Shown: positions 36,052 through 48,642 of the stretch, piece by piece
How the letters are laid out: each line of letters opens with the position of its first letter
Numbering within the stretch: position 1 is the first letter of the stretch
NCBI RefSeq assembly: GCF_001601825.1
Contig: NZ_LUJK01000018.1
Location: 1-53,650, forward strand
Direction of reading: 5' to 3'
DNA length: 53,650 nucleotides
Origin: Limnobacter sp. CACIAM 66H1
GTDB taxonomy: Bacteria > Pseudomonadota > Gammaproteobacteria > Burkholderiales > Burkholderiaceae_B
Position numbers and translations under genes: made by a program
The notes under the pieces: model-generated
What the model was told of the DNA's origin: nothing
Databases searched by the model: none
Seen by the model: only the letters and a program-made list of their open reading frames with translations

Positions 36052-36916
36052 TCAGGCTGCATTGCCCACCGGGGTGTCGTTGGTACCCAGGCGCGCCATC
36101 ACTTCCTTTCGGTAGCGGTTCAAGTCTTGTACCGATTCAAATGTGCGTTCAAACAGCAGGCTCATGTTGTGCAAAATGCGGTCAACCACCTTCTTTTCCC
36201 AATCGGCATCGAAGCGAATCTGGCCATCCAGCCAGTTTTCAAGCCAATCTGGATCGGGCAGTCGACTTTGCACGGTGTCGTTTGGAAACAGGTCTTTGTT
36301 CACGTGCAAATTGGTGGGATGCAGGGGCTTTTGGGTGCGGCGGGCTGACGCCATGAGCACGCCAATTTTGCTGAAAGCAGCACGTGCACCATCACCCACT
36401 TCAACCAATGCTTTTTTCATGTAACGCAGGTAAGCACCACCGTGGCGTGCTTCATCATGCGAAATGATTTTGTAAATTTGTTTGATGACAGGCTCAGTGT
36501 GCCAATCGGAGGCGCAACGGTACCAGTGGTTCAGGCGAATTTCACCGCAAAAATGCAGCATCAGTGTTTCCAGGGGGGGTGCCGGATCGAATTCAAAGCG
36601 AACGGCATGCAATTCTTCTTCGGTGGGCAGCAAGTCGGGGCGGAAACGGCGCAGATACTCCATCAACACCAGTGAGTGCTTTTGCTCTTCAAAAAAACCA
36701 GATGGACATGAAGGCCGAGAAGTCACTGTCGTGTTTGTTGTCACGCAAGAACATTTCCGTGGCAGGCAAGGCAGACCACTCGGTAATGGCGTTCATTTTG
36801 ATGGTTTGGGCCTGTTCTTCAGACAACTTGGAGGCGTCAAACTGGTCCCAGTTGATGTCTTTTTCCATGTTCCAACGAACGGATTCCAATGACCTGAATA
36901 ACTCTGGATACAACAT
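36052..36916 (-). pseudogene. Ferritin-like di-iron protein gene, frameshifted
   Basis: Two frames join into one protein of about 287 residues. The first 75 residues (from ATG 36916, ribosome-binding site GGAG) end in FMSIWFF; the second part (36052 onward) resumes with FEEQKHSLVLMEYL. The break is a run of seven T on the coding strand (36691-36697) where six would keep the frame; the codons read TTT TTT TGA. Across the join, di-iron ligands appear in order: Glu in ITEWSALP, EEQKH, GEIRLNHW and DEARH. This is a ferritin-like four-helix bundle, possibly related to acyl desaturases or ribonucleotide-reductase-like oxygenases. A true mutation, a sequencing error or a +1 frameshift are all possible. 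Confidence 0.82.
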
Positions 36917-37049
36917 GTTGCTCCACCTTCACTGAATAGATTGAACTTTGTGATTTTAACAAGACATGTCATGAAGCGCATGAAGATTTGGTGACACAAG
37001 GCATTTATGTGCACATGTGTACGCCGAATCCTTCCTGATTCAGGCTCTT

Positions 37050-37538
37050 TTAGCCGGCCTGCTTTTTCAACCAGCGCATCAGTCCTCCCAGCACCGGGAT
37101 CTTTTCATACAGCTCTTCAGCCGTGTCCCAATAGTCCCTATGTGACTGAACAAGCCCGTTTTGGTTCAATTGCAGGTGAGATGAGCCTTTGATGCACTGC
37201 ACTTGCCCCACTTTGAAACGTTTCATCTCGAACAGAAAGTCCCAAGCCATGAATACCTGTTGACCCGATTGAAATGCGGTGTGCACCACAAAGCGAGGGT
37301 TGTTGACCTGATGGAACATCTCGCCAAAGATTCGCGCGATGTCCTCCACCCGGTTTACTTCATTGAACGGGTCTTTAAAGTAAGCGTTGTCTGCATAAAA
37401 CCTGGGCATGTCGGCTACGGTGTGCTCGGTCAGGTGCTCAAAAAAATCGATTAGTCTGCGCAAAGGTTCAGACAATTGTTGACGATCCAGCGGTGCAAGG
37501 CCGCCTGTTTTCCCGGTGCTGTTACTTGCTTTGTTCAT
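37050..37538 (-). CDS. NTF2-like (SnoaL-type) protein
   Basis: Protein of 162 residues with an NTF2-like cone fold pattern: helix LRRLIDFFEHLTEHTVADMPRFYADNAYFKDPFNEV, then strands around RFVVHTAFQSGQQVFMAWDFLFEM and the SSHLQL segment. Such proteins bind or isomerise small hydrophobic molecules. It is the last gene of the eight-gene operon starting at 44236 and overlaps the SDR gene by 17 bases. An NTF2-SDR pair next to amine oxidase, DUF1365 and CFA genes recurs in many proteobacteria; the exact role is not known. About 130 bases free of genes follow (36917-37049). They hold a weak inverted repeat GAATC-N6-GATTC at 37026-37041 and presumably the promoter of the ferritin-like gene. Confidence 0.85.
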   Translation of the reverse strand: MNKASNSTGKTGGLAPLDRQQLSEPLRRLIDFFEHLTEHTVADMPRFYADNAYFKDPFNEVNRVEDIARIFGEMFHQVNNPRFVVHTAFQSGQQVFMAWDFLFEMKRFKVGQVQCIKGSSHLQLNQNGLVQSHRDYWDTAEELYEKIPVLGGLMRWLKKQAG

Positions 37539-38331
37539 GGCCCAGTTCCGCTTTGTTTTTGTTGGCGGTCAGTTTTCGCACTGCAGCAAAGTACAGTGAA
37601 TAAGGCAGTATGCGCAGGGTGCGCAGGGTGCGCGTGAATGCCTTGGGGAAATGGATTTCAAACTCTCCCTTCTCAAGGCCTGTAATAATTTCCTGCGCCG
37701 CTTTTTCTGCGGTGATTAAAAACGGCATTGGAAAAGTGTTTTTGCGGGTCAGCGGAGTGTCCACAAAGCCTGGGTTGACGACACTGACGCCCACATGGTG
37801 AGGCTGTAACTCCACATGCAAGGCCTCGGCCAGGTTGATCAATGCTGCTTTGGTAGGGCCATAGGCCAGTGAATTTGGTAAACCTCGATACCCTGCCACG
37901 CTTGACACAATCGCCAGGTGGCCTGACTTTTGTTCGAGCAGCTTGGGCAGTGTATTGGCCAGTACATACATGGTGCCGTTCAGGTTGACATCAATTTGTT
38001 GTTTGACCTTGTCAATGTCAAATTCAGCAACTGACATTTCCGAGTAGGTGCCCGCCATCAACACAATCAAATCCACGCCACCCCATGCGGCGATTACATT
38101 GTCGAAGGCGGTTTTCACCGCCGCTTGTTGGGTAATGTCCAAGGGCAGCGCTGTGGCATGTTGTAACTCGCCAGCCAGGGTGGTCAGTTTGTCTGCACTG
38201 CGAGCCGACAACATTTGCCTGCAGCCCAGTTGGTCCAACTGGCGTGCCAAGGCTTCACCAATGCCGGTGGATGCGCCCACCAGCCACACCCGTTTGTTTT
38301 GCCACTGAGTCAGTTTCGGGTTAAAGCTCAT
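37522..38331 (-). CDS. Short-chain dehydrogenase/reductase
   Basis: Protein of 269 residues. It has the cofactor motif VGASTGIG (18-25) and the catalytic set Ser143/Ser144, Tyr157 and Lys161 (SLAYGPTKAAL). The C-terminus VNPGFVDTPLT and a long basic tail are typical of classical SDRs acting on lipids or ketones. The arginine at position 43 suggests NADP preference, but this is weak. GGAAGG precedes the ATG. It is the seventh gene of the putative light-stress operon; substrates are probably modified fatty acids or their products (inference from neighbours). Confidence 0.93.
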   Translation of the reverse strand: MSFNPKLTQWQNKRVWLVGASTGIGEALARQLDQLGCRQMLSARSADKLTTLAGELQHATALPLDITQQAAVKTAFDNVIAAWGGVDLIVLMAGTYSEMSVAEFDIDKVKQQIDVNLNGTMYVLANTLPKLLEQKSGHLAIVSSVAGYRGLPNSLAYGPTKAALINLAEALHVELQPHHVGVSVVNPGFVDTPLTRKNTFPMPFLITAEKAAQEIITGLEKGEFEIHFPKAFTRTLRTLRILPYSLYFAAVRKLTANKNKAELGHEQSK

Positions 38332-38343
38332 GCGGGTTCCTTC

Positions 38344-38898
38344 CTAATCTCGTTTGCGAAAGCTCAACAGAACTTCGCCCAATTCAATCCCGAATTTACT
38401 CATGGTGGCACGGTTGAGCATCACCTTGTCATCCATCTGGTACATCCAGTCGTCAAATTGCACTTCGTAGGTCGTACCATCCACTGGCAGCAGCATGGTG
38501 TACTTCCATTGAAATGCATTGCCAGAGGTTTCGCCATAGGCTTGGCCAAGCACATCACCTGCGGTCCCCGTGTATTTGTTGCCATCCTTTTTCAGGGTCC
38601 AGACACGCTTTTGAGTGGTGCCATCGGAATAAGTAAAGTCCTCGTCCAGTACACCAGTGTTGCCATCCCATGTGCACTTCATGACCACAGTGAAGCGCTT
38701 GACCACTTTGCCCGATCGGTCTTGAAACACTCCCCAGGCATCGATGGTGCCATTGAAATACTCTTTCAAATCCAGCACCGGTTTTTCCTGTGCGTAGTCG
38801 GCTGGTTGCGGGCTCGCGCAGGCAGTTAAAACCAGCGCACCTGCCAGTGCGAGGAATCCCATTTGCAGTTTGCGTGCCCAGTGTTTTGTTTCAATCAT
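38344..38898 (-). CDS. DUF3833 family lipoprotein
   Basis: Protein of 184 residues with lipobox VLTAC (Cys at about 27). The body follows the DUF3833 pattern: LKEYFNGTIDAWGVFQDRSGKVVKRF, DEDFTYSDGT, and WKYTMLLPVDGTTYEVQFDDWMYQMD. It is likely an anchored lipocalin-like beta-barrel in the envelope. It overlaps the MFS gene by ATGA. DUF3833 genes are repeatedly found with chalcone-isomerase-like, CFA and DUF1365 genes, so a role in handling a lipid product outside the cytoplasm is plausible. Confidence 0.9.
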   Translation of the reverse strand: MIETKHWARKLQMGFLALAGALVLTACASPQPADYAQEKPVLDLKEYFNGTIDAWGVFQDRSGKVVKRFTVVMKCTWDGNTGVLDEDFTYSDGTTQKRVWTLKKDGNKYTGTAGDVLGQAYGETSGNAFQWKYTMLLPVDGTTYEVQFDDWMYQMDDKVMLNRATMSKFGIELGEVLLSFRKRD

Positions 38899-40298
38899 GC
38901 TGTACTCCCAATCGCGGTGTTACTTGTGTTTCGGTTCAGGCTGGCCAGGCCGCTGCGGCCCAGCAATACGATGGCCAGCAGTTTCAGGCCGCAGGGCACC
39001 AAGGCGTAAACCCACAGCAGCGGGTCGTTGGCCAGTTGTTGCAGCAAACCCATGCTTTGGTAAGACTCGGTCTTTGCCATGTCTGCTGAATAGCTGAACC
39101 ACTGCAATGTACCCAGCGCAAAGCTGGGTGCCAGTGCCAGGTTGAATTTATTCACCCAATTCCAAAGCCCAAAGTAAGTGCCTTCTGTTTTGCCTCGTTC
39201 GCCGTTTTCCTCAATCAGCCGGGCCACCAGAGCCGCCGGCAGCGACAAATCAGCGCCCAGCGCGAAACCAGTCACAATACAGACAAACAGATAGCCAGCC
39301 AGATCGCCTTCACCCAGCACAATCACAATGATGAAGGCAGGTATGGATAACACCATGCCCCACAGCCATGAACGCGCCAAACCAATTTTGCTGGCCAACC
39401 ACACCCAGAATACTGTGGAAGCTGCGCCTACCAAAAAGTACACGGCAAGCACCCATTGATCAGAATCGCCCAGCCCCAGGCGGTCGCGCATATAAAAAGG
39501 CACCAGAGTGGCTGGCAGTGCCGCGGCCAGGCCGTTGCACAAAAAGACACCCATCAATTTTCGAAAATTTCGTCGACGCAAGGGTTGAACAATGTCAGCA
39601 AATCCTCTGCGGATCACGCTGGCCGCACCAGCTTGTACCTTGTTGAATGTTTCGCCAAACGGGCTTGCAGCTTGCTGCGCCGTTCGGTCGGGTTTGGGGG
39701 AAAACTTCAACAGCAAAAACATGCCCAACACCAACATCACTGCGAATACGGTGAATATCAGTCCTGCATTGGTTTCCAGTGCCAGTGACACGGCGAACAC
39801 CACACCGAGAATACCTACACCTTCACGCACTGCCACATAGGTTGAGCGTTCCTTGTCGGTGTGCCCAAGTTCAGCCCCCCAAGCCTGGTAGGCGATGCTG
39901 GCGAAGCTGTAGCCAAGGTGTACCACGATTAAGCTCACCATCAGGCTGGCGGCGTACTCGGTGGGTGTGTCGCCCACCGGGAAAAATACACCCGCCATGC
40001 CCAATAACAACAAGGGCACTGCCAGAAGCAGGGGCAGGGCATAACGATTGCCTGGGTTGGCTGAATTTCCTTGCGAGCTTCGCCGATCAACCCACAGACC
40101 AATGGCTGGGTCCAGCACTGCATCGAGTAGGCGCGACAACAGCAAGATGAGCCCCACCCACGCTGATGGCACTTCGTAGATGCGGGAGTACAGGTAGGGA
40201 ACTTGGATATAGATGGGCACGGCCACCGCGCCCAAGGCCCAGCCCAGAAGGCCATAGTTCAGCAAATTCCTGGCGCTGGTTCGGGGCTGTTGTGTCAT
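38895..40298 (-). CDS. GPH-type MFS transporter
   Basis: Protein of 467 residues with about 12 membrane helices. The signature LLLSRLLDAVLDPAIGLWVDRRSS near the N-terminus (about 53-76) is the GPH/melibiose-symporter (MFS_2) motif. Family members usually carry sugars with cations, but a related transporter is also found in singlet-oxygen-induced CFA clusters of Rhodobacter. Here it may move a lipid-derived or glycoside compound; the substrate is unknown. It starts 17 bases after the chalcone-isomerase-like gene. Confidence 0.88.
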   Translation of the reverse strand: MTQQPRTSARNLLNYGLLGWALGAVAVPIYIQVPYLYSRIYEVPSAWVGLILLLSRLLDAVLDPAIGLWVDRRSSQGNSANPGNRYALPLLLAVPLLLLGMAGVFFPVGDTPTEYAASLMVSLIVVHLGYSFASIAYQAWGAELGHTDKERSTYVAVREGVGILGVVFAVSLALETNAGLIFTVFAVMLVLGMFLLLKFSPKPDRTAQQAASPFGETFNKVQAGAASVIRRGFADIVQPLRRRNFRKLMGVFLCNGLAAALPATLVPFYMRDRLGLGDSDQWVLAVYFLVGAASTVFWVWLASKIGLARSWLWGMVLSIPAFIIVIVLGEGDLAGYLFVCIVTGFALGADLSLPAALVARLIEENGERGKTEGTYFGLWNWVNKFNLALAPSFALGTLQWFSYSADMAKTESYQSMGLLQQLANDPLLWVYALVPCGLKLLAIVLLGRSGLASLNRNTSNTAIGSTA

Positions 40299-40315
40299 GT
40301 CGGCGTGGCCGCTGA

Positions 40316-40885
40316 TCAGCGCTTCAAACCAATCAATTCACGGCGCATTTCAGGCGCAGAAGTTTTTGGATCGAGCCAAATACCCATGAATGCCTCGGCC
40401 AGTTCAGGGTCGTCCACTTTGGCCAAAGGCAGGCCGTTGCGGAAAAACTGAATACTTTTGCCGGGAACAAACAAGGCGCTTAATGTGTGGCCTTTCTTTA
40501 CATCTGGAAAAATTTCGTTGAGCTTTACCAGCCAACCCTGGCGTTGCACCTCAGTGCCCGCACCAATTTCTTCCATTTCATCGATGCTGCGTTCCGCGAT
40601 GTCACTTCCATCAAAGTCGCGGGCATATTTCAGTTCGAGCCAAGACGGATCACGTTTGTAATTGAAGCCCTCGGGATCAGCATTGGACCACAGCTGCCCG
40701 TCATACACTCGCAGACCGAACCAACGCAGGGTGCCGTACCCCATGAGTTTTGCATTTTCAATTGTTTGCGTAACCTGTTTGGGCGGCGCGTTCAAATTGC
40801 TGTTGGCCACGGCCAGGGGTGTAGTGCCCAGCAGAGCCAGACACAACAAAGCATGTTGAATAAACTGAACCTGAAACAGCTTCAT
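40316..40885 (-). CDS. Chalcone-isomerase-like exported protein
   Basis: Protein of 189 residues with a signal peptide (ALLCLALLGTTPLAVA) and a chalcone-isomerase-like fold region (MGYGTLRWFGLRVYDGQLWSN, LELKYARDFDGSDIAERSIDEM, and FFRNGLPLAKVDDPELAEAFMGIWLDPKT). Bacterial members lack the plant enzyme's active-site set and are thought to bind fatty acids. It is probably periplasmic. It overlaps the CFA-like gene by ATGA and so belongs to the same operon. Confidence 0.9.
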   Translation of the reverse strand: MKLFQVQFIQHALLCLALLGTTPLAVANSNLNAPPKQVTQTIENAKLMGYGTLRWFGLRVYDGQLWSNADPEGFNYKRDPSWLELKYARDFDGSDIAERSIDEMEEIGAGTEVQRQGWLVKLNEIFPDVKKGHTLSALFVPGKSIQFFRNGLPLAKVDDPELAEAFMGIWLDPKTSAPEMRRELIGLKR

Positions 40886-42108
40886 TGGTTTTCCACCTTC
40901 TCGAGGTAAAACTGGATCACATCGGTACTTTCATATTCAAACCCTGCTTCGCAGTAGGCCAGATAAAACTCCCAGGTGCGAATAAATGGATCGTCAAAGC
41001 CCTGGTTTTTAACCTGTTCCAGTGTTTTCATGAATTGCACTCGCCAGCGGCGCAAGGTTTCAGCATAGTCTTTTCCAAACGCTTTTTCCGACACCACACG
41101 CAAACCATGCTTTTCAGCCATGGTTCTGAACTTCGCAGGTGAAGGCAACATGCCACCAGGGAAAATATACTGTTGAATGAAATCGGTGCCTTTGCGGTAG
41201 CGGTCAAACAACTCGTCCTGAATCACAATGGTTTGAATGGCAGCCTTGCCACCTTTTTTCAGCAGTCGATTCACTGACTGAAAGTAAGCAGGCCAGTATT
41301 CTTCACCGACCGCTTCAAACATTTCAATCGAGGCAATGTGGTCGAACTGACCGCGACAATCGCGATAATCCTGCAGGCGGAAGTCGGCTTGTTCAGCAAA
41401 GCCCTGTTTTGCCAAGCGTGCTTTGGCGTAAGCCAGTTGTTCGGTTGACAATGTCAGGCCCACCAGACTCGCGCCGGCTGCGCATGCCTTCTCTGCAAAA
41501 CCACCCCATCCACATCCAATTTCGAGGACTTGCTCGCCCGCCTTGGGGGCAAGGTAGTTCAGCATGGCTTGGTATTTGGCGTGCTGGGCCTGCTCGAGGC
41601 TCAAGCTGGTGTCCCCATCGAACAGCGCGCTGGAGTAGGTCATCGTGGGGTCTAGCCAGAGCTGATAAAACGGATTACCCAAGTCGTAATGGGCATGAAT
41701 GTTTTTCTTGGCCTGAGCCTTGGTGTTGCGGTTCAGCAGGTGTTTGATTTTGTAGGCGATGCTGCCCAGAAAGCTGCCATAGATGACTGTTTCAACTGCT
41801 TTGCGGTTTTCCAGAAACACGCCCAGAACGGAAGCGATGTCCTGTGTTTCCCACTCGCCAGCGATATAGGCCTCGGCAAAACCAATGTCGCCTGCTTTCA
41901 AGGCTCGTTGACAAACTGCCCACGAATTCAATTTGATTTTCGCGCTTGGCTGGTCTCCTTCTCCACCAAAAAGCAGGTGAACACCTTCGGGGGTCACAAT
42001 CTCGAGGCGGCCTTTCTTGAGTTTGGTGAGTAATTTCAGGGTCCACTGGGCCGACGAGGGGGCGTGGCTTGGCAGTTGAAACTGGGAAAAAGTAATGGCT
42101 TGAGTCAT
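40882..42108 (-). CDS. CFA-synthase-like lipid methyltransferase
   Basis: Protein of 408 residues. The SAM site is VLEIGCGWGG (194-203); HYDLGNPFYQLWLDPTMTYSSALF precedes it and the DHIASIEMFEAVGEEYW segment follows. It methylates the double bond of unsaturated acyl chains in phospholipids. The YSCAYW motif of E. coli Cfa reads YSSALF here (Ser160 in place of Cys139). Together with the DUF1365 neighbour, this fits the CFA-like group active in light or singlet-oxygen stress, some of which make methylated or furan fatty acids rather than cyclopropanes. The product here is an inference. It overlaps both neighbours. Confidence 0.93.
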   Translation of the reverse strand: MTQAITFSQFQLPSHAPSSAQWTLKLLTKLKKGRLEIVTPEGVHLLFGGEGDQPSAKIKLNSWAVCQRALKAGDIGFAEAYIAGEWETQDIASVLGVFLENRKAVETVIYGSFLGSIAYKIKHLLNRNTKAQAKKNIHAHYDLGNPFYQLWLDPTMTYSSALFDGDTSLSLEQAQHAKYQAMLNYLAPKAGEQVLEIGCGWGGFAEKACAAGASLVGLTLSTEQLAYAKARLAKQGFAEQADFRLQDYRDCRGQFDHIASIEMFEAVGEEYWPAYFQSVNRLLKKGGKAAIQTIVIQDELFDRYRKGTDFIQQYIFPGGMLPSPAKFRTMAEKHGLRVVSEKAFGKDYAETLRRWRVQFMKTLEQVKNQGFDDPFIRTWEFYLAYCEAGFEYESTDVIQFYLEKVENQ

Positions 42109-42923
42109 GCTTCGAGTTCAGTCTGCGTAATTGTTTGATGGGGTGGGGCAGGCTTGCTGTGAAACTTCGCGCCTTTGAACAGAAGTTTCACTGCTTGCCA
42201 ATGAATTTTTGCAATTACGGCCAATGTAAACCAACCGTATTTCAATAAGGTTTTACACCAAAGCAGGGTGTCTGGATGCATCAGTTCTCCGCTCACGCTG
42301 GTACTGAGCTGCTGAATTGAACCTTCAAAGTAGTTGATTCGCGCCAAGGTACGCTCCGCGCTGCTGACAAACCGGAACTCATAACGCCCCGAGACCGGGA
42401 AAAAAGGTGAGACATGAAACTCTTTTTTGGCGTGCAGTAACATGCCTTTGTTTATGGGTGCTTGACTGTCCGGGGCGTTTAGCAAATAAAAATGCCTTTC
42501 ACCAAAGGTGTTGTTCACCTCGCACAGCACCACACGGCAGTGCTGGGCTTCATCGTGAAAATACCAAAAGCTGACTGGATTGAACACATAGCCCAATACC
42601 TTGGGAAAAGTGTGCAAATGCACATCACCTTGCAGCGCCATGCCGGTTTCCGATTCCACCTTGCTCACCAACTGACTGACAAACTCCGGAAACTTGAGTG
42701 TGTGTGCTTCGAAGCCATAATTGTGGGCTGACACGGACACCAAACCTTTGCCGTCAATTACTGGGTAAGTGTGCTTGGGAGTTGAATCCGATTGTGTCGA
42801 AAAAACAAGACGTACAAAGCAGGCGCCCGTGGAAAAGCCGTTGGCTTTGGGAAGTGCCCGATGATGTTTCACCAAGCCCCAGGCCAGTTTTACTTCGCTG
42901 AGTTGAAAACGCTTTTGCGCCAT
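42105..42923 (-). CDS. DUF1365 family protein
   Basis: Protein of 272 residues. The family is recognised from the GYVFNPVSFWYFHD motif, CEVNNTFGERHFYLL, KKEFHVSPFFPVSGRYEF and the C-terminal hydrophobic helix region (LLKYGWFTLAVIAKIHWQAVKLLFKG). The frame extends upstream to 43025, but ATG 42923 overlaps the amine-oxidase stop as TGATG and gives the usual N-terminus. DUF1365 almost always lies between an FAD amine oxidase and a CFA-like gene. The enzyme activity is unproven; a link to fatty-acid modification is inferred. Confidence 0.93.
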   Translation of the reverse strand: MAQKRFQLSEVKLAWGLVKHHRALPKANGFSTGACFVRLVFSTQSDSTPKHTYPVIDGKGLVSVSAHNYGFEAHTLKFPEFVSQLVSKVESETGMALQGDVHLHTFPKVLGYVFNPVSFWYFHDEAQHCRVVLCEVNNTFGERHFYLLNAPDSQAPINKGMLLHAKKEFHVSPFFPVSGRYEFRFVSSAERTLARINYFEGSIQQLSTSVSGELMHPDTLLWCKTLLKYGWFTLAVIAKIHWQAVKLLFKGAKFHSKPAPPHQTITQTELEA

Positions 42924-44236
42924 CAAGCCGCCTTTTGTCTGCTTTTCGTCAACTTGTCGATCAATGTGCGTGCCGCATTCAAGCCAGACGTATGGCCATC
43001 TTCGTGAAAACCATATTTCATCCACGCCCCTGCCAGGTAGACATTGTTCAGACCCTGAAGTTCGACCAGAGCCTGTTGGGCTTGAACAGCAGGCACGTCA
43101 AACACAGGGTGTGAGTAATGAATTTCCCTGAACACCTGATTTGCGTCTGGCTGGACAATCGGATTCAGCGTGACGAAGATCGGTTTTTTTACCGGCAGTG
43201 GTTGGAGGCAGTTGCTCCAATAAGTCACAGAAACACTGGGCTGGGGATTCAATACATCACTCAAATAATTCCAGGATGACCAGGTGCTTCGGGTTTTGGG
43301 CATCAGTTTCACGTCGGTATGCAGGTATGCCACGTTGGCTTGGTACTTGATGTGTTGTAACTGATCTTTCTGGGCCTCGTTGCCTTTGAGCATTCCCAGC
43401 GCTTCATCGCTGTGGCAGGCCAAAATTACCTGGTCAAATTCCCGCTCGCCCAGGTGCGTTTTTACAATCGGTTTCACGCCCGTAGTGGTTACCTCAAGCA
43501 CTGGTGTGTTCTTGTGAACCTCATCCACGAAAGGCAATATTTTTTGTACATAATTGCGGGCACCATTTTTCACGGTGAACCATTTGGGTCTGTCATTGAC
43601 TTGCAACAACCCGTGGTTGTGACAGAACTGAATGAATGTAGCCAATGGGAAGGCCAGCATTTGTTCACTGGGGCAAGACCAAATGGCGGCAGCCATCGGA
43701 ATCAGATACCAGTCGCGGAATTCTGCACTGTACTTTTCCTCGACCAGATAGTCGCCCAAATGCATTTTTGCCTTGCTCTGGAATAGCGCGGCTCGCCCGG
43801 CATCAGCAACCATGGCGGTGGCCTCTTTGTTGAACCGTAAAATATCCAGCAGCATGCGGATAAAACGGGGGCGCAACAAATTGCGGCGCTGCGCGAACAC
43901 TGTATTCAGGTTTGTGCCAGCCCATTCAATGTTCAACTCTGGCAAACACACTGAAAAAGACATGTCCGATTCCACGGTCTCCACAGCGAGCTCATCGAAC
44001 AAACGAATCAGATTGGGATATGTTCTTTCGTTGTAGACCAGAAATCCCGTGTCCACTGCGACTTGTGTTCCTTCAACCTCGATGTCCACCGTATTCGTAT
44101 GGCCGCCAATGTAATCGTTGGCCTCAAACAAGGTGGTGTGTGCATGGTCTCGCAGTGCGTAAGCCGCCGTGAGGCCAGAGATTCCTCCGCCCACGATTGC
44201 GACTCTGGGCAATAAATCTTTTGAATTCTTGGTCAT
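42923..44236 (-). CDS. FAD-dependent amine oxidase/phytoene-dehydrogenase-like protein
   Basis: Protein of 437 residues. The dinucleotide-binding motif VAIVGGGISGLTAAYAL (12-28) leads to EANDYIGGHTNTV, and the C-terminus has the FAD-binding LAGAWMKYGFHEDG segment. It resembles NAD/FAD oxidoreductases that occur with DUF1365 and CFA-like genes; it probably oxidises a lipid intermediate. First gene of the eight-gene operon running to 37050. The 110 bases upstream hold a palindrome and the folE2 hairpin, and presumably the operon promoter. Confidence 0.92.
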   Translation of the reverse strand: MTKNSKDLLPRVAIVGGGISGLTAAYALRDHAHTTLFEANDYIGGHTNTVDIEVEGTQVAVDTGFLVYNERTYPNLIRLFDELAVETVESDMSFSVCLPELNIEWAGTNLNTVFAQRRNLLRPRFIRMLLDILRFNKEATAMVADAGRAALFQSKAKMHLGDYLVEEKYSAEFRDWYLIPMAAAIWSCPSEQMLAFPLATFIQFCHNHGLLQVNDRPKWFTVKNGARNYVQKILPFVDEVHKNTPVLEVTTTGVKPIVKTHLGEREFDQVILACHSDEALGMLKGNEAQKDQLQHIKYQANVAYLHTDVKLMPKTRSTWSSWNYLSDVLNPQPSVSVTYWSNCLQPLPVKKPIFVTLNPIVQPDANQVFREIHYSHPVFDVPAVQAQQALVELQGLNNVYLAGAWMKYGFHEDGHTSGLNAARTLIDKLTKSRQKAA

Positions 44237-44290
44237 GTGTACTCAGGGTTTAAGAGAAGCAAGGGTATTCACTAACATCCTAACCTTTTA

Positions 44291-44302
44291 TTACTGCAGT
44301 AA
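44291..44302. promoter_or_regulatory. Perfect 12-bp palindrome upstream of the amine-oxidase operon
   Basis: TTACTGCAGTAA, fully self-complementary, about 55 bases upstream of the amine-oxidase ATG. Its position fits an operator near the -35 region. The regulator is unknown; the B12 photoreceptor encoded 1.7 kb away is a candidate. Confidence 0.4.
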
Positions 44303-44310
44303 GTGAAACT

Positions 44311-44335
44311 GGTTCTGGCTTTTCCAGCCAGAACC
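44311..44335 (-). terminator. Probable folE2 terminator hairpin
   Basis: Perfect ten-base stem GGTTCTGGCT / AGCCAGAACC with a five-base loop, 11 bases past the folE2 stop. The T-tract on the minus strand is weak (AGTTTC), so termination may be partial, letting some folE2 transcription enter the amine-oxidase operon. Confidence 0.55.
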
Positions 44336-44345
44336 GCGTTAATGA

Positions 44346-45149
44346 TTAATTTTGTTTGCGTTTGTCTTCTTCGATCCAGGCCACTGCTGAATGGTTGTGA
44401 ATCGATTCGAAGTTTTCACTCTCAATTCGATAGGCCAAAACCTTTTTGTTGGCCCGCAGGCGAATCGCGACATCACGAACCAGGTCTTCAACAAACTTGG
44501 GGTTGTCGTAGGCGCGCTCGGTCACATATTTTTCGTCTGGACGCTTCAACAAGCCCCACAGTTCGCAAGACGCTGATTCCTCAGCCATTCGAATCAGTTC
44601 CTCAACAGCGATGCCGTCGGCCACCAATGCGCGGATCGTAATGTGGCTGCGCTGGTTATGTGCACCATACTCGGAAATCTTCTTGGAGCAAGGGCACAGG
44701 CTGGTCACGGGTACCACCACTGTCATGAATACGTCTGTATTCGAGCCATTGTTGTCAGCTTCCAACGTGACCTCGTAGTCCAGCAGGCTAGCCACACCCG
44801 ACACGGGCGCAACCTTGCGCACGAAGTAAGGAAATTTCATCGTGATGGTGCCGGCGTTTGAATCCAGACGTTGAAGCATGTCCCTCATCATCTGTTTCAT
44901 GCCAACGGGGGTCAGTGCACTCTCCTGGGTTTGCAGGATTTCGAGAAAGCGCGACATGTGTGTGCCCTTTACATCGCTGGGCAAAAACACCGACATATCA
45001 ATCGTGGCCACCGAAGGCTGTGGACCTTCCAGTGTTTCCACAATGATCGGGTGCTTGATTGATCGCACCCCCACTCGTTGAATGGCGATGTTGCGTTTGT
45101 CTGCACGTGATTGTTCGTCAGGTAAAAATAGTCCGTCCGGTGCATTCAT
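44346..45149 (-). CDS. folE2: GTP cyclohydrolase FolE2 (type IB)
   Basis: Protein of 267 residues. The diagnostic motif [21 protein letters not shown] carries the metal and catalytic residues (Cys152, Cys154, His164, His169). It converts GTP to dihydroneopterin triphosphate, the first step to folate and other pterins. FolE2 can use several divalent metals and often replaces FolE under zinc limitation. Here it sits 21 bases after a glutathione peroxidase gene and close to a cryptochrome, so it may supply pterins under light stress (inference). ATG 45149 follows GGAG at about ten bases; the TTG upstream is unlikely. Confidence 0.95.
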
Positions 45150-45170
45150 GACGAAGCGCTCCAATAATAA

Positions 45171-45737
45171 TTACTGCTCTGTGATTGGATGTGCATCGAG
45201 TGCACGGCGAATTGCCTGGGTAATCTGGGGGCTTGTGGGTGAGACACCGCTTTTGAAGGTGCCGACCACTTCGCCCTTGCGATTGATCAGGTATTTATGG
45301 AAATTCCAGCCGGGTTGTTCTCCGCTGGCGTTGGCCAATTGCTTGTACAAAGGGTTGGCCCCATCCCCTTTCACCACGGTTTTTGCAAACATCGGAAACT
45401 TCACTCCGAATGTGTTGTTGCAAAAAGCCGCAATTTCCTTGTTCGATTTGTATTCTTGATTACCGAAGTCGCTTGATGGAAAGCCCACGACACTAAAACC
45501 TTTCGATTTGTATTGGCTGTGCACTTTTTCGAGTTCTTCATACTGGCTGGTAAAACCGCAGAAGCTAGCCGTATTGACCACCAACAAGACTTGTCCCTTG
45601 AAGTTGCAAAGTGAAATCGCCTTCTCGTCCTGAAGTCTGGGAAACTCGTGGTTCAGCAAAGCGGGGCATTGCTGGCCTGGCTTGGCCTGTGCAGAGTTCC
45701 ACAGCAACAAGCCAAACACCGCAATCATGCCAGCCAT
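45171..45737 (-). CDS. Exported glutathione peroxidase family protein
   Basis: Protein of 188 residues from ATG 45737. The first 18 residues (MAGMIAVFGLLLWNSAQA) form a signal peptide, so it acts in the periplasm. Catalytic Cys60 lies in VNTASFCGFTSQY; the Gln and Trp-Asn of the active site appear in FGNQEY and GWNFHKYL. It uses cysteine, not selenocysteine, and in bacteria such enzymes often use thioredoxin-like donors rather than glutathione. The frame extends to 45863; TTG 45752 would add Arg to the signal peptide and is a fair alternative. It is followed by folE2 and diverges from the LitR-like gene. Confidence 0.9.
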   Translation of the reverse strand: MAGMIAVFGLLLWNSAQAKPGQQCPALLNHEFPRLQDEKAISLCNFKGQVLLVVNTASFCGFTSQYEELEKVHSQYKSKGFSVVGFPSSDFGNQEYKSNKEIAAFCNNTFGVKFPMFAKTVVKGDGANPLYKQLANASGEQPGWNFHKYLINRKGEVVGTFKSGVSPTSPQITQAIRRALDAHPITEQ

Positions 45738-45770
45738 AACCCGCTGCCCAAGGTTTACCCGGACTGGACT

Positions 45771-45786
45771 AGACAGATGCTTGTCT
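45771..45786. promoter_or_regulatory. Inverted repeat upstream of the glutathione peroxidase gene
   Basis: AGACA-N6-TGTCT, 34 bases upstream of the likely gpx start. It shares TTGTCT with the palindrome ahead of the LitR-like gene. Candidate operator only. Confidence 0.35.
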
Positions 45787-45908
45787 TTACAATGCGCATT
45801 ATCCACTTGAATGTCTCTATATGTGTGGTTAAATCTCAGCCAATGTGCTAATTTGATTGGCAATCAGGCTTTGAGTTCCATTATTATTCGTTCAGTGTGG
45901 CAAGTCAA

Positions 45909-45923
45909 TTTGTCTAGGACAAA
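45909..45923. promoter_or_regulatory. Inverted repeat upstream of the LitR-like gene
   Basis: TTTGTC-TAG-GACAAA, a perfect six-base inverted repeat with a three-base centre, 38 bases before the regulator's ATG. It is well placed for autoregulation by a dimeric or tetrameric MerR-type protein. Confidence 0.5.
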
Positions 45924-45961
45924 ACAAAGATGTTGAAGTTTCACCGTGGTCAGGTTCAGGT

Positions 45962-46903
45962 ATGAATGAGCGTGCAGATTTAAGCCAACCCTCATTTTCA
46001 ATCGCAGCAGTCGAGCGGGACACCGGCTTGCCCAAAGACACCTTGCGCGTCTGGGAAAAGCGCTACAACTTTCCACAACCTGGCCGGGATTCCTTCGGTG
46101 AGCGTATTTACTCCATCGATCAAGTCGAGAAATTGCGAGTCATCAAAAGGCTTCTCGACGGCGGTCACCGCCCCGGAAAAATCATTGGTTTGAGTATCGA
46201 CGAACTCGTCAAGTTGGCAGAGGTCAGTAGCGCGGGTTCGAGAATGAACGTGGCGCCAGACAGCCTGGACGAATTGAATGGCTACATGGAGCTCATCAAG
46301 CGACATGATGCAGAAGAATTCCGCCAGGCGATGTCTCGCCTGGCCTTGACTATGGGTCTGCGCCGTTTTGTGGTTGAAATCGTGGCGCCCATGAATGCAA
46401 TGGTGGGAGATGCCTGGGCTCGTGGGTACTTTGAAATTTTTGAAGAACACATTTACACCGAGACCATTCAGGTGGTGCTTCGCAATGCATTGAACACCAT
46501 TCCCTCCACCCGAAAGGGTCCACGCGTACTGCTCACCACACTTCCCAACGAGTTGCATGGTTTGGGTTTGCTGATGGCCGAATGCATTTTTTCAATGGAA
46601 GGTGCTCAGTGCGTATCACTGGGTACCCAAACGCCCATCTACGACATTGTATTGGCTGCCCGCGCGCAGAACATCAATATTGTGGCCTTGTCATTCTCGG
46701 TGATACAAAGTTCGCCCGCAGTGCTTGAAGCGGTTGCCGAGTTGCGCGAGAAGTTGCCTCCCATGGTTGAAATCTGGTGTGGCGGTTCCTCCACGGCCCT
46801 GCGCAAAAAGCCTTCAGAAGACTTCGTGCTGCTCTCCAGCCTTGAGTCGATCAGCGAGTCGATTGCAGACTGGCGACTGCGCAACAAATTCAATCAGCAG
46901 TAA
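45962..46903 (+). CDS. LitR/CarH-like B12-dependent MerR-family photoregulator
   Basis: Protein of 313 residues. The N-terminal MerR helix-turn-helix (SIAAVERDTGLPKDTLRVWEKRYNFPQP, 13-40) is followed by a helical B12-cap domain and a Rossmann-type B12-binding domain. The key adenosylcobalamin residues of CarH are all placed as expected: Trp152, then Glu162-His163 at the same spacing, and the E-x-H-x-x-G motif with Glu197, His199 and Gly202 (PNELHGLG). In this family the dark, B12-bound tetramer represses and light breaks it apart. It is followed by DUF2256 and a cryptochrome and diverges from gpx-folE2, the gene set that LitR proteins control elsewhere. Light sensing here is inferred. Confidence 0.88.
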   Translation: MNERADLSQPSFSIAAVERDTGLPKDTLRVWEKRYNFPQPGRDSFGERIYSIDQVEKLRVIKRLLDGGHRPGKIIGLSIDELVKLAEVSSAGSRMNVAPDSLDELNGYMELIKRHDAEEFRQAMSRLALTMGLRRFVVEIVAPMNAMVGDAWARGYFEIFEEHIYTETIQVVLRNALNTIPSTRKGPRVLLTTLPNELHGLGLLMAECIFSMEGAQCVSLGTQTPIYDIVLAARAQNINIVALSFSVIQSSPAVLEAVAELREKLPPMVEIWCGGSSTALRKKPSEDFVLLSSLESISESIADWRLRNKFNQQ

Positions 46904-46908
46904 CTCCA

Positions 46909-47082
46909 GTGTCGGGCAAGCAGCAAACTTTCAAAGGCAACAAGTCGTATTTGCCCAGCAAGCCGTGTACTGTTTGCGGCAAAGACATGACCTGGCGCAA
47001 AAGCTGGGCCAGGAACTGGGATGATGTGAAGTACTGCTCCGACGCATGCCGCAAGGCAGCGCCACGAACGAGCGGCAAATAA
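46909..47082 (+). CDS. DUF2256 family small zinc-finger-like protein
   Basis: Protein of 57 residues, starting at GTG five bases after the regulator's stop. Two cysteine pairs (CTVCG and CSDAC) frame the conserved [18 protein letters not shown] segment, which is diagnostic for DUF2256. It probably binds zinc. It contains no acidic patch and has a basic C-terminus ([10 protein letters not shown]). DUF2256 genes are nearly always next to cryptochrome/photolyase genes, as here (16 bases before the next start); the function is unknown. No strong ribosome-binding site is visible, so translation may be coupled to the regulator gene. Confidence 0.9.
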
Positions 47083-47098
47083 ACTGGCAGCAAACAAC

Positions 47099-48642
47099 AT
47101 GGGCAGTGACACAAAAGCAGTGGTGGTGTTGGGCGACCAACTCGATATGAACAACCCCGCGCTGCGACTCAATCCCCCGGAAAACACACACATCATCATG
47201 GTGGAGTCCGCCACCGAATCCACTGTGGTTTGGGTTCATAAGGTTCGCATTGCTTTGTTTCTAAGCGCCATGCGCCATTTCGCCGATGAGTTGCGCCATG
47301 CAGGTTACACGGTGCACTACCGCACTTTGGCAGACACGGGTCGACGCAGTCTTGTGCAGGAAGTCGCTGCACTGTGCAAGCAACACGGATATACCAGCAT
47401 CGACATGGCCGAAGCCCGGAGAATCGGCGCTTGGAGCAAGACTTCCTGACGCTTGCCAAATCAGACAATCTCAAGTTGCGTCTTCTCGAAGACTCGCATT
47501 ATTTGTGCAGCCGCGCTGAATTCGCAAAGTGGGCCAGTGGCTACAAACAGATGCGCATGGAGTATTTTTATCGCGAAATGCGCAAGCGCACGGGCGTATT
47601 GATGGAGGGTGCTGAACCGGCGGGTGGCAAATGGAATTTTGACGCGGACAATCGCAGTGCCTTTCCCAAGGCAGGTCCAGGCGACATTACGCCCCCTGCA
47701 TTTTTCGAACCCGATGAAATCACTCAGGCAGTATTTGCAGAGGTTGAAGCGAGTTTTCCTGATCACCCAGGCACATTGAAAAATTTTGCGTGGCCAGTGA
47801 CACGTGAACAGGCTCTGCAGGCGCTCGATGCCTTCATTGAGAACCGTTTTGTCAACTTCGGCACCTATCAGGATGCGATGTGGACTGACACGCCGTTCGG
47901 TTGGCACTCACTGGTGTCCAGTTCAATCAACTTGCACTTGCTACATCCTCTAGAAGTCATTCAAAAAGCAGAGGCGGCTTACCGCGCGGGCAAGGTGGAT
48001 GTCGCCAGTGCAGAAGGGTTTGTTCGGCAAATTCTGGGCTGGCGTGAATTCATGCGCGGGGTGTATTGGCTCGATATGCCGAAAATGCGTGACGACAACC
48101 ATTTGCAAGCCGAACTTGATTTGCCCAAATGGTTTTGGACTGGCAATACCCAGATGAACTGCCTGAAAGACTCCATCGGCCAAACGCTCGATTACGGCTA
48201 TGCACATCATATTCAACGTTTGATGGTGATTGGCAATTTTGCCTTGTTGGCCGGGCTAGTGCCACAGCAGGTGGAAGAATGGTTCTTGGCGGTGTACGTA
48301 GACGCCGTTGAGTGGGTTGAGCTGCCCAATGTGGCCGGCATGGCTCTATTTGCCAATGGCGGGCGTTTCACCAGCAAGCCCTACATTGCCTCGGGTGCTT
48401 ACATCAAACGCATGAGCAACTATTGCGGCGGTTGCAAATACGACCCAGCTGAGAAAACTGGTGACAAGGCCTGCCCATTCACGACGCTGTACTGGGGGTT
48501 TCTTGACCAGCATGAAAAAATGCTGTCCGCCAACCCGCGAACCGGCCTGATGGCCAAAAACATTGCGCGACTGGATGAGGCCCAGCGCCGTGCTCTTCGG
48601 CAAAAAGTAGCCGATACCTTCAAGAATATTGAACAACTGTAA
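47099..48642 (+). pseudogene. FeS-BCP type cryptochrome/photolyase, frameshifted
   Basis: One gene in two frames. The first 105 residues or so ([23 protein letters not shown]) are the alpha/beta domain. After IDMAEA near 47424-47432 the frame changes, and the rest ([18 protein letters not shown] onward to 48642) is the FAD-binding helical domain. It includes the iron-sulfur cysteines in YCGGCKYDP and KACPF and the GGRFTSKPYIASGAYIKRM segment. Restoring one C in the CCC at 47430-47432 gives an intact protein of about 514 residues. The family includes (6-4) photolyases and cryptochromes carrying a 4Fe-4S cluster, FAD and a lumazine antenna. As sequenced, it would not be made in full. Confidence 0.88.

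Follow-up and report, generated by a model that had tools for sequence, protein, structure and literature searches.

A candidate B12-dependent LitR regulon for furan fatty acid synthesis and repair in Limnobacter and other Burkholderiales

Introduction

What does a vitamin B12-binding regulator control when its neighbours are genes for lipid modification, DNA repair and the removal of peroxides? This question is raised by the litR locus of Limnobacter sp. CACIAM 66H1, which lies in a stretch of 53,650 nucleotides (contig NZ_LUJK01000018.1, positions 1 to 53,650) that we call the window. The litR gene (45962..46903, plus strand) encodes a MerR-type regulator with two B12-binding domains, as identified with Pfam, a PDB search and a motif alignment. 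A preliminary description of this DNA had proposed that light releases LitR and so switches on the surrounding genes as one response. Here we show that litR is linked to genes of the furan-fatty-acid (Ufa) pathway across the Burkholderiales, that a palindrome tracks with litR, and that the same palindrome precedes unlinked genes in Limnobacter. We consider it probable that LitR is a B12-dependent repressor, of the class I LitR/CarH-like kind, of a furan-lipid and repair regulon.

Results

The lipid product of the operon beside litR can be approached through a described pathway. According to PMC7380195, UfaM methylates cis-vaccenate chains within phospholipid, UfaD desaturates the methylated product, and UfaO, a DUF1365 protein, forms the furan by oxygen insertion. 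The same source reports that deletion of RSP1087, RSP1088 or RSP1089 left the fatty acids unaltered. In the window the minus strand carries a UfaD-like flavin adenine dinucleotide (FAD) amine oxidase (42923..44236), a UfaO-like DUF1365 protein (42105..42923) and a UfaM-like S-adenosylmethionine-dependent methyltransferase of the CMAS family (40882..42108), in this order, and then five further genes. The families are Pfam assignments and the roles of UfaD and UfaO follow PMC7380195; a CMAS-family methylase, an FAD oxidoreductase and a DUF1365 protein are the gene set of the Ufa pathway. The UfaM-like protein matches NCBI cyclopropane synthase models without reaching their thresholds (278 against 600, 246 against 400 and 202 against 650 bits). 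The preliminary description had listed DUF1365 as having no assigned step, in what might be an incompletely described pathway. As UfaO it does have a step (PMC7380195), so the core pathway is already described and the modified membrane lipid, which had been proposed in general terms, is most likely a furan fatty acid, as predicted from the enzyme families and the gene order.

The linkage between litR and this operon is widely conserved. A LitR scan of genome contigs gave a discovery set of 28 LitR loci. UfaD adjoins LitR in 24 of these (the misses are L016, at a contig end, L031, L032 and L033) and all eight operon genes are found at 17, some loci being cut by contig ends. We also drew 150 Burkholderiales evenly, 64 of which have the DUF1365 protein and 46 LitR at E <= 1e-30. 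The ufaO gene is present in 43 of the 46 genomes with LitR and in 21 of the 104 without it (Fisher p 4e-18, a test that ignores phylogeny). The neighbourhoods of 63 of the 64 ufaO genomes (our own excluded), minus one Limnobacter locus, provided a held-out set of 62 ufaO loci, in which stretches of 90% identity to the discovery loci never exceed 41 bases. Its neighbourhood table under-counts genes where frames overlap. The LitR match is strong at 33 of these loci, weak at 4 and lacking at 25. Where it is strong, litR is divergent from the head of the operon in 28 cases, comes after the final operon gene in 4 and is set apart in 1. The preliminary description had staked its proposal on conserved linkage of regulator and operon in relatives, and this linkage was found. 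Since the arrangement recurs across the Burkholderiales, it is not due to chance.

Such linkage could also reflect plain synteny by descent rather than one regulon. An AurF-like gene and hldE are frequent neighbours too, and the association tests take no account of phylogeny. However, LitR remains beside ufa while the surrounding gene order is rearranged between genomes, the same operator also stands before unlinked genes (see below) and an analogous set in Pseudomonas is light-induced (PMC9758184). We therefore regard synteny by descent as very unlikely to be the whole explanation.

A further possibility is that RpoE-ChrR drives the operon, as in Rhodobacter and Vibrio, and that LitR is incidental. 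The Rhodobacter ufa operon is under ChrR (PMC7380195) and in Vibrio cholerae ChrR and a MerR protein divide the blue-light response between them (PMC5241685). Yet in the 64 ufaO genomes no ChrR match exceeds the family cut-off; weak matches occur in 31, and the best in our own genome reaches 40.7 against 124.5 bits. The comparison of the two regulators, which the preliminary description had suggested, shows that ufaO goes with LitR, and control by ChrR is extremely improbable here.

The operon is not always accompanied by LitR. The gene upstream of ufaD was inspected in 27 of the 29 held-out loci without a strong LitR match (L074 and L120 were left out). At seven of them (L070, L081, L089, L100, L105, L109 and L114) a gene judged by reading to be TetR-like is divergent from ufaD, and the three of these proteins that were scanned all match TetR_N. 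With a TetR-like gene in the place of LitR, the operon has a different regulator at these loci. At L065, L067, L068 and L076 a weakly matching second type of LitR adjoins a second UfaM-like gene; these proteins keep the B12 motifs and their loci have no TTGTCYWRGACAA sites.

The palindrome TTGTCYWRGACAA was first seen by eye upstream of litR in the discovery loci. At one mismatch or fewer it is found in 25 of the 28, every such site being upstream of litR, and is lacking in L025, L030 and L032. The held-out loci contain 36 sites at the 33 LitR loci and a single site, inside ufaD, at the 29 others; a control that reads the pattern backwards matches once in all 62 loci. In 21 of the 33 held-out LitR loci the site is upstream of a recognised gene. 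The operon can also keep its site where litR has moved: litR lies at the operon end in L073, L093, L099 and L124, and the latter two retain a one-mismatch site before ufaD. In L073 and L093 the best sites before ufaD have 2 and 3 mismatches, respectively, and are closer to the Pseudomonas TGTACA type, which a site upstream of ufaD in L124 also resembles.

The window hosts a perfect palindrome, TTGTCTAGGACAA, in the intergenic region between litR and the glutathione peroxidase (GPx) gene (45910..45922). This is one of two perfect matches genome-wide, in a search that covered the 3.2 Mb assembly of 108 contigs. In the window, a looser form of TTGTCYWRGACAA, with up to three mismatches, shows no enrichment (43 against 38). 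Across 16 Limnobacter genomes the exact form TGTCTAGGACAAA occurs 30 times and its backward control never; matching of coordinates places 13 occurrences at litR, 13 at a short-chain dehydrogenase (SDR) gene, 2 at a gene for a protein of 137 amino acids and leaves 2 unexplained. The unexplained pair are both in one relative, G013 (L139 and L152). Two one-mismatch sites were treated as chance, one before a MarR/OhrR-like gene with an Ohr-like neighbour (C1:47502, L036) and one before a receiver-like gene (C4:29506, L037), the genes being named by eye. The palindrome appears to be a candidate LitR operator that marks LitR-linked promoters, as judged from where it occurs.

The same operator is predicted to serve genes that are not linked to litR. 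On contig C11 an SDR gene, a gene for a cryptochrome-like protein with a photolyase FAD domain and a DUF3429 gene form an operon (L049:1158-3699). Of the 16 Limnobacter genomes searched, 13 have the SDR, and every one of these has an operator 46-48 bp upstream of the operon start, with one mismatch in 11 and none in 2. The second perfect site of the genome precedes the gene for the 137-amino-acid protein (C13:53294-53704; L034, L159), which is flanked here by an ABC1-kinase gene and a metallo-beta-lactamase-fold gene. A perfect operator is found 23-32 bp before the start of this gene in 15 of the 16 Limnobacter genomes. The exception is G007, which is also the sole genome of the 16 without a LitR match and gives no SDR match; as it is 85% complete, incompleteness could explain the missing LitR and SDR, but not the missing operator. 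The 137-amino-acid protein has no Pfam match, and in a PDB search it resembled only designed or unrelated chains, all of them weakly (best E 1e-4). Near the ufa operon of the held-out locus L086 there is an SDR gene like that of C11, with a perfect site.

The sharing of an operator among these genes argues for one regulon. The single LitR regulon of the preliminary description is upheld in so far as linkage is conserved and the operator is common to the targets, but the regulon would be larger than the window and include unlinked members. An alternative is that another regulator binds the palindrome, or that it is part of a promoter class, and that LitR has a different operator. The window site does touch a -35 box, and the replacement of LitR by TetR shows that the regulators of the operon do change. 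On the other hand, the counts above show that the site tracks LitR, its palindromic form is expected for a MerR-type dimer, and the one genome in which the 137-amino-acid gene has no such site is also the one in which LitR has no match. We think this alternative quite unlikely.

In many relatives the operators are paired. The spacing was first seen at one mismatch, where 6 of 16 pairs are 62-64 bp apart; we then surveyed 59 litR upstream regions (26 discovery, 33 held-out) for sites with up to two mismatches. The survey found 88 sites in 40 pairs. The spacing is 62-64 bp in 23 of these pairs, one per locus in 23 loci (8 discovery, 15 held-out), and exactly 63 bp in 15 of the 23. In 100 shuffles there were on average 1.3 sites and no pairs at 62-64 bp. 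Between the paired sites lies a minus-strand TTGAC box followed about 17 bases on by a TA-rich -10 box, a sigma70-like promoter that faces the ufa side. This layout suits a repressor that would bridge two palindromes around a promoter.

The window has a comparable promoter next to its single perfect site. A sigma70-like sequence, TTGACT, 17 nt, AATAAT (10 of 12 positions matching), points towards GPx, folE2 and ufa (45880..45908, minus strand), and its -35 box ends one base from the operator; promoter-like sites in the litR-GPx region are not above shuffles (3 against 1.8). A tentative operator-like site with four mismatches (45764..45776) overlaps a plus-strand promoter-like pair, 146 bp from the perfect operator. 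Further down the run, between folE2 and ufaD, there is a strong 10-pair hairpin with a weak T tail (44311..44335, minus strand; folding z -2.2), in a region where terminator-like sites are not above shuffles (2 against 2.7). This hairpin is perhaps an attenuator or a processing site.

LitR itself has the features of a B12 photoreceptor-type regulator, as the preliminary description had supposed, at the level of domains and motifs. Its MerR-type DNA-binding domain (PF13411) scores 48.6 bits against a cut-off of 21.6, as expected of class I; B12-binding_2 (PF02607) scores 25.1 against 23 and B12-binding (PF02310) 32.1 against 32.1, only just enough. CarH chains are the best PDB matches (E 1e-27). 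The motif W-x9-EH, which contacts the adenosyl group, is at residues 152-163, with Trp and Glu retained, and ExHxxG is at residues 197-202. Both motifs are kept in all 60 strong LitRs (59 distinct) and in all four weak ones. The genome also encodes a BtuR-type adenosyltransferase.

One residue departs from this pattern. At the position of the upper His of Thermus CarH (TtCarH), the residue after the Trp, the window LitR has Ala153, and across the LitRs the residue is Ala (26), Met (15), Val, Leu, Ser or another one. PMC10442372 reports that TtCarH H132A mostly remains tetrameric under light, the His being needed for light-driven dissociation, and cites an earlier study in which H132A came apart; the upper His is described in PMC9304148 as present in many, not all, CarH homologs. 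With the His absent, these LitRs either release by another route or sense something else. LitR might act through its operator yet sense the supply of cobalamin or the redox state of cobalt, not light, and the targets would suit oxidative stress as well as light. Set against this are the retained adenosyl-contacting Trp and Glu, the photolyase and cryptochrome-like genes among the targets, the dissociation of H132A in the earlier study and the presence of the upper His in many, but not all, CarH homologs. We judge such a B12- or oxidation-gated regulon to be rather unlikely.

The remaining genes of the locus agree largely with the preliminary description: all those it named are found between 36052 and 48642, eight of them on the minus strand from 44236 down to 37050. 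After ufaM come genes for a chalcone-isomerase-like protein (40316..40885), a GPH/MFS_2 transporter (38895..40298), a DUF3833 protein (38344..38898), an SDR (37522..38331) and a SnoaL/NTF2-like protein (37050..37538), all minus-strand Pfam assignments. The order of this eight-gene operon stands, but the same minus-strand run is headed by GPx (45171..45737), probably exported, with an N-terminus judged by eye to be a signal peptide, and the type I GTP cyclohydrolase gene folE2 (44346..45164), both also assigned by Pfam. On the plus strand, litR is divergent from this run and is followed by a gene for the small Cys-rich protein DUF2256 (46909..47082; Pfam, 72.3 bits) and a photolyase gene of the DPRP family (iron-sulphur cryptochrome/photolyase type; 47099..48642, Pfam). 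The photolyase family is confirmed, although the gene is not intact in the assembly: its frame changes between two pieces (47099-47449 and 47374-48642), and it is a single open frame of 513 codons at the relatives' loci L006, L010, L012 and L018.

The start of the interval, 36052, belongs to an AurF/ferritin-like gene that the preliminary description left unnamed (36052..36916, minus strand). This gene is also frame-shifted, with a downstream piece at 36052-36744 and an upstream piece from 36916. Both frame shifts may be either a sequencing fault or real decay. The AurF match is under the Pfam cut-off (25.1 against 29.6 bits). AurF-like proteins occur in 42 of the 64 ufaO genomes and 17 of the 86 others (Fisher p 1e-8, again ignoring phylogeny). 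In rearranged genomes the gene lies near LitR or the ufa operon, frequently with hldE, and so part of this association may be synteny; from its distribution, the AurF-like gene may be counted as a candidate member of the regulon only.

Discussion

The model that we favour can be described as follows. In the dark, LitR bound to adenosylcobalamin (AdoCbl) would sit on the palindrome and, in many relatives, on two palindromes 62-64 bp apart that flank the GPx/folE2/ufa promoter. Bound LitR would block this promoter, and probably also litR-DUF2256-photolyase on the opposite side of the same intergenic region. Light would cleave AdoCbl and LitR would leave the DNA. UfaM, UfaD and UfaO could then make methylated furan fatty acids, a singlet-oxygen scavenger in membrane phospholipid, while the exported GPx, pteridine precursors (through FolE2) and the photolyase would be made as well. 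In Limnobacter the same operator would serve the SDR/cryptochrome-like/DUF3429 operon and the 137-amino-acid protein, and transcription from the GPx promoter would run through the hairpin between folE2 and ufaD.

Several points weigh against this model, which was built from sequence. The His after the Trp (His132 of TtCarH, the upper ligand of the light state) is found in none of the 60 strong and none of the four weak LitRs. LitR does not reach the cut-off of the NCBIfam TransRegCarH equivalog (NF052513, 121.4 against 400 bits), so it is not filed as a CarH equivalog. It also departs by one residue, SxS for Sx[T/V], from the motif [D/E]xHx2[G/P]-x41-Sx[T/V]-x22-27-GG, a looser form of which fits 53 of the 60 LitRs. 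With regard to the operator, no recognised gene is preceded by a site of at most one mismatch in 12 of the 33 held-out LitR loci, which in part reflects approximate gene starts; allowing two mismatches still yields no site before litR in L118 and L119. At up to two mismatches the genome-wide count (240) is barely above the backward control (217), so only conserved sites are trusted. The paired site is absent from Limnobacter, the window included, and from all eleven nearest loci (L006-L015, L018). LitR lies outside the fetched ufaO neighbourhood in 8 of the 43 genomes with both genes. Finally, transcription could stop at the hairpin that separates folE2 from ufaD, and likeness to the Ufa proteins of Rhodobacter (RSP2144, RSP1091 and RSP1090) was assessed from protein family and gene order only.

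Parts of this arrangement resemble known systems. That LitR controls photolyase, folE and cfa-like genes, as the preliminary description stated, holds in Pseudomonas, where the regulons include photolyase, ufaM and folE but the LitR is of class II and LOV-driven (PMC9758184). As in the Pseudomonas PplR and PmlR systems, a LitR-family repressor adjoins genes for a photolyase, an SDR, an FAD oxidoreductase and UfaM; Pseudomonas folE and cryB are also light-induced (PMC9758184). According to the same source, the class II LitR has one of the two B12 domains that Limnobacter LitR has, and is released by a short LOV protein; its operator is TRTACA-N12-TGTAYA in place of TTGTCYWRGACAA, and the cyclohydrolase gene is folE in place of folE2. 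The Pseudomonas operator has no window match at fewer than two mismatches, and one with three in the litR-GPx gap (45800-45823). It was rejected for the window, where matches with up to three mismatches (52 against 30 expected) are an unexplained excess spread throughout. Genome-wide it gives 257 matches at up to two mismatches, against 179 backward, and one perfect match (C19:9850).

The class I LitR/CarH proteins of Thermus, Bacillus and Myxococcus share with Limnobacter LitR the MerR helix-turn-helix, the helical-bundle and Rossmann B12 domains, W-x9-EH and ExHxxG (PMC10442372, PMC9304148). As described in these sources they mainly control carotenoids, whereas here the neighbours are furan-lipid genes, the upper His is absent and the CarH equivalog cut-off is missed. 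The Ufa pathway of Rhodobacter and Rhodopseudomonas has the same three families with UfaD and UfaO adjacent, but in Rhodobacter ufa is under ChrR/sigma-E and ufaM lies elsewhere, while here the three genes stand together with five more and LitR (PMC7380195). In V. cholerae a MerR-like regulator is in a predicted operon with a photolyase and a CFA-like gene is induced by blue light; there two regulators share the response, unlike our LitR-only model (PMC5241685). The class IV LitRs of Vibrio are described as having no B12-binding domain (PMC9758184).

In the literature searched, with subscription papers outside its scope, we found no related description of the palindrome spellings and no prior study of a B12-type LitR/ufa regulon. 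What appears to be new is a furan-lipid regulon under a B12-type LitR, with its own operator, paired sites, a missing His and unlinked targets. A broader idea, which we put forward tentatively and hold with somewhat less than even confidence, is that betaproteobacterial B12 LitRs may be a distinct type of light switch without the upper-His ligand switch of TtCarH, bridging two palindromes six helical turns apart around the promoter and heading a furan-lipid and repair regulon instead of one for carotenoids, with the 137-amino-acid protein as a core target.

In summary, throughout a large bacterial order the synthesis of furan fatty acids is tied to a predicted B12 photoreceptor, and the candidate operator can be used to predict the remaining members of the regulon. 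The 137-amino-acid protein, DUF2256, DUF3429 and DUF3833 would gain a concrete functional context. Furthermore, LitRs that are naturally without the upper His may provide a direct test of whether the ligand switch of TtCarH is essential for light sensing by B12.

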